Source: a virus
DNA length: 47,150 nucleotides
IMG/VR virus record: IMGVR_UViG_3300021091_000131
Coordinates: 1-47,150 of that record
Strand: one strand, 5' to 3'
In this document: piece after piece, positions 14,345 to 47,150 of the stretch
How positions within the stretch are numbered: position 1 is the stretch's first letter
How the letters are laid out: each line of letters opens with the position of its first letter
The notes under the pieces: model-generated
The model's input: only the letters and a program-made list of their open reading frames with translations
Database searches by the model: none
What the model was told of the DNA's origin: nothing
Translations under genes and position numbers: made by a program

Positions 14345-14833
14345 ATGGCCGATTTATTAATGAAGATGCCGACTCCTTATGAGCCGAAACGTCAAAACAG
14401 GTTTATCGTTAGATTTCCATCATCTTTGGGTATTAACGAGTGGTATGTAACATCTACATCTAGACCAAACGCAAAAATTACTTCAGTTGCGATTCCTTTT
14501 TTAAATACATCAACATACGTTGCTGGTAGATTTGAATGGCAAGAAATTAGGGTAACATTCAAGGATCCAATTGGACCTTCTGCTTCACAAGCATTAATGG
14601 AATGGTTTCGTTTACATGCTGAATCAGTTACAGGACGTATGGGGTATGCCGCTGGTTACAAGAAAAATGTAGATTTAGAAATGTTAGACCCAACAGGAGT
14701 GGTTGTTGAAAAATGGATTCTTGAGGGTTGTTTTATTACCGATCTTAACTTTGGTGATTTGGATTACTCAAGAGATGAATTGGCAACTATTACTTGTTCT
14801 TTAAGAATGGATAGATGTATTCAAGTATATTAA
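14345..14833 (+). CDS. 19: Tail tube protein (gp19-like)
   Basis: 162 aa, nearly the length of T4 gp19 (163 aa). Characteristic segments are the N-terminal PYEPKRQNRFIVRFPSSLG, IPFLNTSTYVAGRFEWQEI, VTFKDPIGPSASQALMEWF and the C-terminal WILEGCFITDLNFGDLDYS followed by ITCSLRMDRC. These match the beta-barrel subunit that stacks in hexameric rings inside the sheath. The position downstream of the sheath is as in T4. A strong terminator follows, so it may be a single-gene transcript with high output, fitting a protein needed in many copies. Confidence 0.95.
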   Translation: MADLLMKMPTPYEPKRQNRFIVRFPSSLGINEWYVTSTSRPNAKITSVAIPFLNTSTYVAGRFEWQEIRVTFKDPIGPSASQALMEWFRLHAESVTGRMGYAAGYKKNVDLEMLDPTGVVVEKWILEGCFITDLNFGDLDYSRDELATITCSLRMDRCIQVY

Positions 14834-14931: not shown

Positions 14932-15681
14932 ATGGAAACTTATAACATTGACCCAACAATATCATATGATGTAATTGAATTACCAAGTCAAGGTATTCAT
15001 TATTCAAATAAAAAAAAATCTTTAAGAATTGCATATCTTACTGCTGCAGATGAAAACATATTATCATCACCAAGTTTAATTGCTTCAAGTAAAGTAACAG
15101 AAGAATTAATTAAAAGAAAAATTTTAGACAAAGATTTTCCGATTGATGAACTTGTAGAAGAGGATAAACAAGCTATTTTAATATTTTTAAGAAATACAGC
15201 ATTTGGTTCAGAATATAAGATTACAACAACTGATCCAGTAACAAATAAAGAATTTTCTTTCGAGGTAGATTTATCTTCATTAAAAATTAAAGAATTTAAA
15301 TTAAAAGAAGATAATAACGGGGAATTTTCATTTTTTTTAGAAAAAAGTAAAGTAGATATCACATTCAAATTTTTAACACAAAAACAAGAAAAAGAAATTC
15401 AAGATATCGGAGATAGTTGGAATGGTGTTGGAGTGGCACCCATTGTTACAAAACAATTGGAGTTCATGATAAAATCTGTTAAAGGTAACAGAGATCCAAT
15501 GGTTATAAGAAATTTTGTTGACAATCTACCAATTAAAGATTCACAAGATTTTAAAAAATATGTTAGAGAAAATAAACCAGGTTTAGATTTAACACAAAAA
15601 GTAAAAGCCCCATCAGGAGAAGAAGTCCAAATTGAAATTGGATTCGGGGTTGAATTTTTTCGCCCTTTCTACGGAATATAA
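14932..15681 (+). CDS. 26: Baseplate/tape-measure chaperone, gp26-like (zero-frame product)
   Basis: 249 aa from the ATG at 14932; an upstream in-frame ATG at 14890 lies inside the terminator T-tract and is rejected. The layout is that of the T4_baseplate (gp26) family. N-terminal YDVIELPSQGIHYSNKKKSL is followed by IAYLTAADENILSSPSL, a helix with LIKRKILDKDFPIDELVEED and a beta-rich part. The final helical region has KFLTQKQEKEIQD and FVDNLPIKDSQDFKKYVREN. T4 gp26 is 208 aa. It lies immediately before the tape measure gene, the usual place for tape-measure chaperones. The zero frame ends in FFRPFYGI, but a coherent 49-codon continuation exists in the +1 frame, described separately. Confidence 0.85.
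   Translation: METYNIDPTISYDVIELPSQGIHYSNKKKSLRIAYLTAADENILSSPSLIASSKVTEELIKRKILDKDFPIDELVEEDKQAILIFLRNTAFGSEYKITTTDPVTNKEFSFEVDLSSLKIKEFKLKEDNNGEFSFFLEKSKVDITFKFLTQKQEKEIQDIGDSWNGVGVAPIVTKQLEFMIKSVKGNRDPMVIRNFVDNLPIKDSQDFKKYVRENKPGLDLTQKVKAPSGEEVQIEIGFGVEFFRPFYGI
15655..15663 (+). other. Candidate +1 (or -2) ribosomal frameshift site
   Basis: The zero-frame codons are TTT TTT CGC. If the tRNA-Phe in the P site slips from TTT (15658-15660) to TTC (15659-15661), reading continues as GCC CTT TCT in the long frame. TTC is a perfect match for the usual tRNA-Phe anticodon, and CGC is an uncommon Arg codon in this AT-rich window, which would slow A-site entry. A -2 slip along the six T's gives the same frame with one extra Phe. 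A -1 slip ends after 11 codons. Confidence 0.6.
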
Positions 15682-15811
15682 AAAAGGACAATTAGACGAA
15701 ATTTTATTTTTAATTAAAAGAGGTTTCACTTACGGTGACATTATCACCATGCCTGTTTATATTAGAAGATATTATGTTAACTACTTAATAGAATTAGAAA
15801 CTAAAAACTAA
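15662..15811 (+). CDS. Frameshift-encoded C-terminal domain of the tape-measure chaperone
   Basis: A frame of 49 codons in the +1 frame relative to the gp26-like gene. It is open upstream only to 15605 and has no ATG or GTG before an internal ATG at about 15752. The peptide begins ALSTEYKKGQLDEILFLIKR and continues GFTYGDIITMPVYIRRYYV and NYLIELETKN. This 'Y-x-x-G-x-L-D-x-IL-x-LI-x-RGF-x-x-x-D-I-x-x-MP-x-YIRR-YY' layout resembles the second, helical domain of tail assembly chaperones that bridge to the tape measure. It ends 14 nt before the tape measure start. Expression by frameshifting from the upstream gene (product about 292 aa) is the best explanation. A sequencing indel in the T6 run is the alternative. 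Confidence 0.75.
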   Translation, partial: ALSTEYKKGQLDEILFLIKRGFTYGDIITMPVYIRRYYVNYLIELETKN

Positions 15812-15825: not shown

Positions 15826-17739
15826 ATGGGTATGGATATTATTGAATTATATAACAAGTATTCAAATGATAAATCAAGTTTCGTAAATGAGGCGGTGTCT
15901 AAAAATCTTGCATCTGATAAGGCAAGTGCGGGTTCATTTTTTGATAAATTTAAAAAATTAAAAGGCGGATCACAAACATCAACAGCAACAACTTCAGGAG
16001 ACGGTGGAGGAAATCAACAAGGAGTTATAACAAAAGGTTTAGATATGTTGAAGGGGTTAATAGACACTCAAAAAACACAATCACAACAATATGATGAATC
16101 AGAATTCACAAGAATAAATGACTTTCTTGATATAATAAACAAGAAAGGTCAAACAATGGGGGGAATAAAGGATGTGATGAGTAGGGTTGTAGGAGGACTC
16201 GGAAACGCACTTGTAGAACAATTGAAACAAGAAGCACAATTAAGAACAGACATAAATGAAAAAGTAGGTTTACAAGGTGAATTATCAAAAGGATTAAGAG
16301 AGGAAATGATTGCAGCATATCCATCTGTGTTAAGACTTGGTTATGGAATAGATCAGTTGTCAAATATGATGTCAAGTATGATGACTCAAACTGGTAGATT
16401 TAATGTTATATCTGAATCAACAATAAAAAGAACGGCAGAGGTTGCTAGAGCTTTTGTTGGTGATTTGTCATCAATGGGAGAAGTAATTGGACAATTTGAA
16501 AAAGCTGGTGTTGGTGCTGCAGATGCAATGAATGCAATAGAAAAGGCGGGAAAAAGTTCGCTCACTTTAGGGTTGAATTCTAAAAAAACAACTGAAGAAT
16601 TAAGGACAAATCTTAATAAATTAAATGAATATGGATTTAAAAATGGTATAGACGGTCTTAACAGAATGGTTCAAAAATCAATTGAATTTAGAATGAGTAT
16701 GGAATCTGTTAAAGCACTTGCCGATAAAGTTTTTGAACCAGATAAAGCATTAGAATTATCTGCAAATTTACAAGTTTTAGGTGGGGCAATAGGTGATCTC
16801 GGAGACCCAATAAAACTTATGTATATGGCAACAAACAACGTTGAGGGTTTACAAGACGCATTAATAGGTGCGGCAGGATCTTTAGCAACTTATAACTCTG
16901 AACAAGGAAGGTTTGAAATTACAGGCATCAATTTAAGAAGAGCAAAACAAATGGCGTCAGAATTAGGTGTTCAATATGAAGATTTGGCAAAGGGAGCAAT
17001 CGCGGCAGCTGAAAGATCTTCAGCTGCAACTGATTTAATGATGAGTGGATTAGTAATGGATGATAAAGAAAAAGAATTTATAACCAATCTATCTCAAATG
17101 AAAGGTGGTAAAATGGTTATTGAAGTTCCACAATCATTATCAGATGAATTTCAAGGTAAAACAGAAGTTGCCTTGTCAGAATTAACAGACGCACAAAAAA
17201 CAACTTTATTATCAAATCAAAAAGCATTCGAAAAAATGTCTGCAGAAGATATTGCAAGAGGACAACTTAGTGCGACGGAAAATATTCAAAGAGATGTTGC
17301 ATTTTTGGCCGCAACAACAAGAGGACAAGCAGTGAAAGCGGCAAAAAGTGCAATGGAGGCTGCTGGTATAGATTTAGATAAACAAGCCGAAGGTGTTAAA
17401 AAAATGATTGACGGAGTTGTTAAAGGTGAAATAAGTGGAATGGAGGAAGTCAATAAATTTATAAAAGATTTTGTTCAGGACTTATCTGGTGATAAAACAA
17501 AAAAAGGTAAAGCCACAGGTGAAACTAAATCCATAGATGTAAAATCTGCTGAAGAAAAAAATAAGAAAAAAAGTGAATCTGGAGGATCATCAGAGACTAC
17601 AGTTAATCTTAAACATTCATTTGGAACAGTAGAACCAATATTAGATGAATATGGTAGATATATAATGAAAAATCCTGCTGCATATGATGATATGTTTTCA
17701 GTCGATCCCAATTCATATACAACCCCACCCCGTAAGTAA
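15826..17739 (+). CDS. 29: Tail tape measure protein (gp29-position)
   Basis: 637 aa; T4 gp29 is 590 aa. An alternative start two codons in (ATG at 15832) is equally possible. The protein is mostly predicted helix, rich in Ala, Lys, Glu, Met and Gly, without Cys or Trp. It has long amphipathic stretches such as SSMGEVIGQFEKAGVGAADA and a hydrophobic middle (GGLGNALVEQLKQEA, AYPSVLRLGYGIDQLSNMM). A Lys/Ser-rich, low-complexity tail follows from about 560. It directly follows the chaperone gene, as tape measure genes do in contractile and siphoviral tails. From T4 biology, the protein sets tail length inside the tube and is ejected on infection. The assignment rests on composition, length and position more than on residue motifs. 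Confidence 0.8.
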   Translation: MGMDIIELYNKYSNDKSSFVNEAVSKNLASDKASAGSFFDKFKKLKGGSQTSTATTSGDGGGNQQGVITKGLDMLKGLIDTQKTQSQQYDESEFTRINDFLDIINKKGQTMGGIKDVMSRVVGGLGNALVEQLKQEAQLRTDINEKVGLQGELSKGLREEMIAAYPSVLRLGYGIDQLSNMMSSMMTQTGRFNVISESTIKRTAEVARAFVGDLSSMGEVIGQFEKAGVGAADAMNAIEKAGKSSLTLGLNSKKTTEELRTNLNKLNEYGFKNGIDGLNRMVQKSIEFRMSMESVKALADKVFEPDKALELSANLQVLGGAIGDLGDPIKLMYMATNNVEGLQDALIGAAGSLATYNSEQGRFEITGINLRRAKQMASELGVQYEDLAKGAIAAAERSSAATDLMMSGLVMDDKEKEFITNLSQMKGGKMVIEVPQSLSDEFQGKTEVALSELTDAQKTTLLSNQKAFEKMSAEDIARGQLSATENIQRDVAFLAATTRGQAVKAAKSAMEAAGIDLDKQAEGVKKMIDGVVKGEISGMEEVNKFIKDFVQDLSGDKTKKGKATGETKSIDVKSAEEKNKKKSESGGSSETTVNLKHSFGTVEPILDEYGRYIMKNPAAYDDMFSVDPNSYTTPPRK

Positions 17740-45197: not shown

Positions 45198-47150
45198 ATG
45201 AAAATAAGAAGAAGTTCTGAAGATTTAAATTTTATTTTTAATGGTGATACTTCATTCAAAGCAGACGCTGGATGGGAAGAAAATTTAAGAGACTTTGAAA
45301 AAGAAACTCTTACTTCAATTATTAATCCAGCTGAAAACTATGAAACGGTAAGATATATTCATAAGGAATATAATTGTGGTAGTGGTATAACACAAAATGA
45401 CATTTGGTTTTATTTTTATTTTTTAGATAACACAAATAATTACACAAATGGATTAGACTATAGTTTAGTAGATATAACACCTAAAGAAAATGCACAAATG
45501 TTGGCGCAATCTACAAATAGTTTCTTTAGGTTAGAATTTTATAAAACACCAAACAATACTCCACCTGATAGATCTAATAGAAAACTTGCTTTTGCTAAAA
45601 ATCTTTCATTACCAAACGGTGAAAAATATTTTTATACAACTTTAAATGATTACATATTTGTTCCTGTATTCACTGGATCTAATTATAGAAACTCTGAAAA
45701 CATGTATTTGTATTGGTTTCAGGATGATTCCGTTTTAGGTGACACAACATTATCTGGTAACACATTTTGGATGACTGCTAGATTTTTTAATGCTAAAGAT
45801 GGATCAATATCTAATTTTCATAATAGAGTATTAACACCAAACCACGAATTTATTGAAGAAGAAGATTTTTATTATAGAGTAACATTTGATAAAAGTTTAC
45901 ACACTTATGAAATATGTTCATATAGTGGTAATACTTTATTTGGTCCATGTAATACTAATGATGTTAGAGGTAAAGTTTGTAACTCAGTCAATTTTTATCA
46001 AAGTTACACACCATCAACAACTACAATTCCACAAACAACGAGGACGCCCACACCAACAATTAGTGTAACCGCAACCCAAACAATTACACCAACACCAACT
46101 AGAACACCAACAAAAACGGCAACACAGACTCCTACACCAACTCCAACAAGAACACCATTTTCTACCTTGACACCAACACCTTCAATTACTGCCTCTCCAA
46201 CTACAACACCTACACCTACTCAAACATTAACGTCAACACCTACGCCAACTCCAACTCCAACACCTACTCAAACATTAACACAAACAGTTACACCAACGCA
46301 AACACTTACACAGAGTGTAACGGCAACTTCTACGCCAACACCAACACCTACGCAAACTGAAACAGCAACGCTAACTCCAACTCCAACACCAACGCAAACA
46401 TTAACACAGAGTGTAACGGCAACTTCTACGCCAACTCCAACACCAACGCAAACACTTACACAGAGTGTAACGGCAACTTCTACGCCAACTCCAACACCTA
46501 CGCAAACTGAAACACCTACACAAACACTTACACAGAGTGTAACAGCAACGCCAACGCAAACTCCAACACCTACGCAAACTGAAACAGCAACGCTAACTCC
46601 AACTCCAACACCAACGCAAACACTTACACAGAGTGTAACGGCAACTTCTACGCCAACTCCAACACCTACGCAAACACTTACACAGAGTGTAACGGCAACT
46701 CCTACGCCAACTCCAACGCAAACACTTACACAGAGTGTAACAGCAACGCCAACACCAACTCCAACACCTACTCAAACATTAACTCAAACAGTTACATCTA
46801 CACCTACACCTACGCCAACGCAAACACTTACACAGAGTGTAACAGCAACTTCTACGCCAACCCCAACGCCAACGCAAACATTAACACAGAGTGTAACGGC
46901 AACTTCTACGCCAACTCCAACGCAAACACTTACACAGAGTGTAACGTCAACTTCTACGCCAACCCCAACACCAACGCAAACATTAACTCAAACAGTTACA
47001 TCTACACCTACACCTACACCAACGCAAACACTTACACAGAGTGTAACGGCAACTTCTACGCCAACACCAACACCTACGCAAACTGAAACACCAACGCAAA
47101 CATTAACACAGAGTGTAACGGCAACTTCTACGCCAACTCCAACGCCAACG
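45198..47150 (+). CDS. Mucin-like Thr/Pro-repeat virion protein (3' end outside window)
   Basis: The frame opens with ATG directly after the previous stop and stays open to the last base, giving at least 651 residues. The first 270 or so residues look globular and beta-rich ([40 protein letters not shown]). From about 275 on, the protein is almost only Thr and Pro with some Gln, Ser, Val, Ala and Leu, in tandem modules. This extended, rigid and Thr-dense composition resembles mucin stalks and could be O-glycosylated. Position after the wedge genes suggests a peripheral baseplate or fibre component with a long stalk. The distal part, which might bind the receptor, is not in the window. Confidence 0.8.
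46030..47150 (+). repeat. In-frame Thr/Pro tandem repeat array
   Basis: At least 1.1 kb of repeats, running off the window. Three module types alternate. One is [18 protein letters not shown] (54 nt), recognisable by CAGAGTGTA, which I count 12 times. The others are [14 protein letters not shown] (42 nt) and [16 protein letters not shown] (48 nt). The nucleotide copies are nearly identical, including synonymous positions, which points to recent duplication or ongoing gene conversion. All modules are multiples of three, so copy-number change keeps the frame. Assembly errors in copy number are likely here. Confidence 0.9.

Follow-up and report, generated by a model that had tools for sequence, protein, structure and literature searches.

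Organization of the putative chaperone locus

The window analyzed here is the whole stretch of 47,150 nucleotides of the IMG/VR virus record IMGVR_UViG_3300021091_000131, which derives from a T4-related bacteriophage. The following features are located at the chaperone gene and next to it:

14345..14833, plus strand: tail tube protein (gp19 type), upstream neighbour; PF06841, E 3.4e-7; phrog_4542, E 3.6e-29
14932..15681, plus strand: zero-frame ORF, predicted short form (gp26-like tail assembly chaperone, TAC-N), 249 amino acids; ATG at 14932, TAA at 15679-15681; matches to PF12322 and phrog_150
15608..15611, plus strand: conserved CCCC (codons 226-227), possible 5' arm of an upstream RNA helix
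15646..15649, plus strand: conserved GGGG (Gly239 codon GGG), possible 3' arm or anti-Shine-Dalgarno contact
15655..15663, plus strand: putative shift site TTT TTT CGC with an inferred P-site slip; A-site CGN in 212 of 294 contexts
15662..15811, plus strand: +1-frame extension of 49 codons (15662-15808) plus stop codon (15809-15811), predicted to be the gp51-type (TAC-C) C-terminal domain in the long form; supported by substitution pattern and homology to -1-frame gp51 ORFs
15826..17739, plus strand: putative tape measure protein, 637 amino acids, assigned by position and length only

When the sequence was re-read, both frames were directly seen, and the coordinates and codon counts given in the preliminary description for the gp26-like frame ending at 15681 and for its 49-codon +1 extension proved to be right. 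The T run occupies positions 15655-15660 and is followed by CGC (15661-15663). The next ORF begins at 15826, which is 14 nucleotides past the end of the extension. This ORF did not match any family in Pfam-type and phrog profile searches, and its tape measure identity is positional. The chaperone gene follows a tail tube gene identified by profile match and precedes the putative tape measure gene assigned by position; in the relatives, a long ORF starts within 60 nucleotides downstream of the extension in 218 of 276 contexts. Searching the window for tRNAs yielded no hits. At the far end of the window the last ORF (45198-47150) turns into a long Thr/Pro-rich repeat, which runs past the window edge.

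The zero-frame protein matched PF12322 (T4_baseplate) with an E-value of 4.4e-8 (33.5 bits, cut-off 24.5) and positions 17-233 of the 282 positions of phrog_150 (E 1.1e-10). When the two frames were fused, the phrog_150 match extended to positions 17-281, with a small gain in score from 42.4 to 46.8 bits. The two T4 proteins cover positions 14-235 (gp26) and 13-280 (gp51) of this profile, and since the ends nearly coincide (233/281 vs. 235/280), the short form agrees in length with gp26 and the long form with gp51. For the fused product of the closest relative (L004) the phrog_150 match reached position 238 only. Neither T4 gp26 nor T4 gp51, taken as single sequences, gave a significant result when compared directly with the fused profile. 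Among solved structures, a sequence search with the fused profile gave Rab8a as sole match (E about 0.03), which we took as chance.

A profile search of the extension against tail chaperone second domains had been suggested. The extension alone matched no family in family profile searches. However, a profile of the -1-frame gp51 ORFs of ten other T4-type phages (see below) matched the +1 extensions with a score of 32.1 (E 2.5e-6, for one comparison), whereas 50 column shuffles scored 13.6 at most.

Conservation of the extension in related viruses

Related loci were collected by five homology scans, which used zero-frame proteins only, and were supplemented with known phages. This gave 405 loci representing 296 distinct contexts, and the latter number is the better count since some contigs were fetched twice. 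By a mechanical length rule, the out-of-frame extension that the preliminary description had proposed to look for in relatives was found in 391 of the 405 loci. Nine of the other 14 are cut by contig ends, and two (L332, L375) carry the extension on inspection, with both frames open and a homologous +1 peptide. In two more, Stenotrophomonas RAS14 and Rhizobium RHph_I1_18, the shift is -1 instead of +1, and the last one (L318, zero frame 2001-2717) is the sole relative among the 405 loci in which the extension is shortened by a stop codon. In all of the first 80 relatives the zero frame ends at residue 249 or 250, and the +1 extension is kept up to the contig limits (the contigs of L019, L043, and L066 end early). 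Extensions in the +1 frame are also present in Microcystis Mel-JY01, Streptococcus GXN1, Bacillus SP-15, Listeria LIS04, Pseudomonas QdP_Psa3, and the metagenomic sequence LR756508. The extension is listed as a hypothetical gene of its own in Mel-JY01 and is without annotation in GXN1 and LIS04.

Between close pairs, substitutions in the extension fall on codon positions 1, 2, and 3 in a ratio of 23/7/81, and the changed codons comprise 79 synonymous and 23 nonsynonymous cases. This ratio indicates that the extension evolves as a translated +1-frame protein, on which, as judged from the sequences, purifying selection acts. The broken copy in L318 is what a non-functional relic might look like, but the selection in the +1 frame and the near-universal retention make such a relic a practically negligible explanation for the extension.

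The extension had been described as lacking a normal start codon. This is correct for ATG and GTG, neither of which precedes the domain in the +1 frame, but in the window, TTG codons of this frame precede the site. These codons would fit a separately started small gene or a product of termination and re-initiation, as would the cyanophage annotations that give the homologous piece as a gp51 gene of its own. On the other hand, in 76 of 289 contexts (a count for which the Phe pair had been misassigned in phages with a gene end of TTC TTT TAA) a +1-frame stop codon is located upstream and no start codon follows up to the site. Since relatives have such a stop and no start, the TTG codons of the window are probably not used. 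Moreover, the first 22 codons past the site are without a usual start in 63 of 114 contexts, and conservation begins right at the Phe-Phe junction. Consequently, we consider a separately started product highly unlikely.

Putative shift site and probable direction of the slip

The preliminary description had asked for a conserved TTTTTTC-type site in relatives, and such a site was indeed observed. Across the 294 contexts, TTT occupies the P site in 289 cases, CTT in four, and CTA in one; the A site holds CGN in 212, TGG in 56, and TAC in 19 cases. Thus, TTT_CGN prevails and most other contexts carry TTT_TGG or TTT_TAC. At the junction most contexts have TTT TTT. However, 11 contexts have TTC TTT ahead of CGN, TGG, or TAC and four have TTT CTT TGG, and all of these retain the extension.

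These variants lacking the T6 run favour a +1 slip over the other ways of joining the two frames. A Mu-like shift of -2 on the T run would reach the same frame and add one Phe; it had been put forward next to +1, and the T6 run of the window and the TTT TTT of most contexts permit it. At TTC TTT CGN and TTT CTT TGG, re-pairing two bases back is impossible, although the extension is kept there, and so we regard a -2 shift as very unlikely. The comparison of relatives backs the shift into the +1 frame. The homopolymer might also suggest RNA polymerase slippage or an assembly error. However, hundreds of contigs show the same split, as do deposited phages, and some of these sites have no T6 run. 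Because hundreds of related viruses keep this arrangement, the frame split is real rather than a sequencing slip, and slippage of the polymerase or misassembly is extremely improbable.

CGC had been called an uncommon Arg codon, and codon counting bore this out: in 21 ORFs of the window it accounts for 2 of 457 Arg codons, CGG for none, and AGA for 79%. For this reason a slow A site is plausible at CGC, depending on the tRNA supply of the host. As a sequence feature, the site combines the UUU_C P site with the rare A-site codon that characterize +1 sites of the UUU_CGN type.

Upstream of the shift site, CCCC and GGGG are kept at synonymous sites (the Gly239 codon is GGG in 91 of 99 representatives), and RNAalifold pairs both. 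The stretch between CCCC (15608-15611) and GGGG (15646-15649) contains the conserved sequence TCAGGAGA. Both arms are changed in 12 of 111 thinned CGN contexts, most of which look like one group of relatives; the A-U pairs in these contexts may reflect preferred codons only. With TTT in the P site, a helix could hardly act because GGGG would then sit inside the ribosome. In this position, GGGG would lie about where a Shine-Dalgarno contact would sit. An Rfam search over the region returned no match.

Proposed mechanism and comparison with known frameshift systems

Tail chaperone genes shift by -1 in phage lambda and by -2 in phage Mu. For the present locus, the preliminary description had proposed a short and a long chaperone from one gene. 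The conserved +1 extension and the phrog_150 lengths, which resemble those of T4 gp26 and gp51, agree with this proposal, and from these sequence comparisons we conclude that one gene very probably gives rise to two forms of the tail assembly chaperone via a +1 shift near its end. We infer the occurrence and efficiency of the shift, the tRNA step, and the chaperone function as follows. The majority of ribosomes would translate through to 15681 and release the 249-residue short form. A minority would stall with Phe-tRNA on TTT (15658-15660), waiting for the slow decoding of the rare Arg codon CGC in the A site. Here, the tRNA-Phe would slip from TTT (15658-15660) to TTC (15659-15661), and skipping of one base would place the 49 codons 15662-15808 in frame and yield the long form. 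If the lambda gpG/gpGT model applies here, the short form may cover the tape measure protein, and the additional domain in the long form may bring in the tail tube protein.

As in lambda, an out-of-frame C-terminal domain is located at the end of the chaperone gene, and comparison of the relatives showed the conserved extension without its own start that is typical of gpG/gpGT; however, the lambda shift is -1 whereas the one proposed here is +1. T4 has two separate genes for gp26 and gp51, in contrast to the single gene with a proposed +1 shift in our phage. T4-type chaperones belong to the same family (PF12322, phrog_150) and also have a short and a long form. In ten sampled cyano- and proteobacterial T4-types (S-CAM22, Syn33, S-RIM44, phiM12, Melnitz-2, pf16, Cr30, PX29, RHph_I1_18, RAS14), a small -1-frame ORF is open across the gp26 stop and adjoins TTT TTT, TTT TTC, or TTT TTA. 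Here, the homologous C-terminal piece is joined near the Phe-Phe junction, as in the window, but by a -1 shift. Annotations of cyanophages and other T4-types (L409-L416) treat the C-terminal piece as a short gene of its own (gp51, hub assembly catalyst, or hypothetical), although its -1 frame stays open through the gp26 stop.

Vladimirov and colleagues reportedly found, in 2022, that shifting is conserved in several T4-like groups. The preliminary description knew of no described case of frameshifting in a T4-type gp26. According to papers citing their work, however, Vladimirov, Gautam and Davidson (2022) identified the T4-type chaperones; one later paper (PMC12846349) refers to this work for poly-T -1 signals and another (PMC10885494) for two-gene T4-types. 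As far as these citing papers convey it, frameshifted T4-type chaperones are already known. The chaperone frameshift has been called widely conserved except in T4, and a +1 shift was considered very likely for the tail chaperone of the haloarchaeal virus HSTV-2 (Atkins et al., 2016, PMC5009743). In influenza A virus, PA-X is formed by a +1 shift at UCC_UUU_CGU, as shown by protein sequencing, and a UUU_C class of +1 sites with a CGN preference was predicted (Firth et al., 2012, PMC3498833). Our site shares with PA-X the UUU_C P-site slip and CGN in the A site. However, PA-X belongs to a eukaryotic virus and an unrelated gene, and its E-site codon is UCC, whereas UUU or UUC is found here.

The new part may be the +1 direction with the UUU_CGN cassette, which is itself known from PA-X. 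A more far-reaching proposal, which we regard as possible rather than probable, is that a single family uses the same Phe-Phe junction for a -1 shift in cyano- and proteobacterial T4-types and for a +1 shift (UUU_CGN, UUU_UGG, UUU_UAC) in a large group including this phage, and that CCCC/GGGG is a novel stimulatory element within the CGN clade. In some of the deposited phages examined, the gp51-type domain has been missed or split off as a separate gene. The relatives provide a large natural set of likely +1 sites with varied P-site and A-site codons, which should be useful for learning what causes forward slips. Taken together, the comparison suggests that the direction of the shift has changed within one protein family while the junction and the product were retained.
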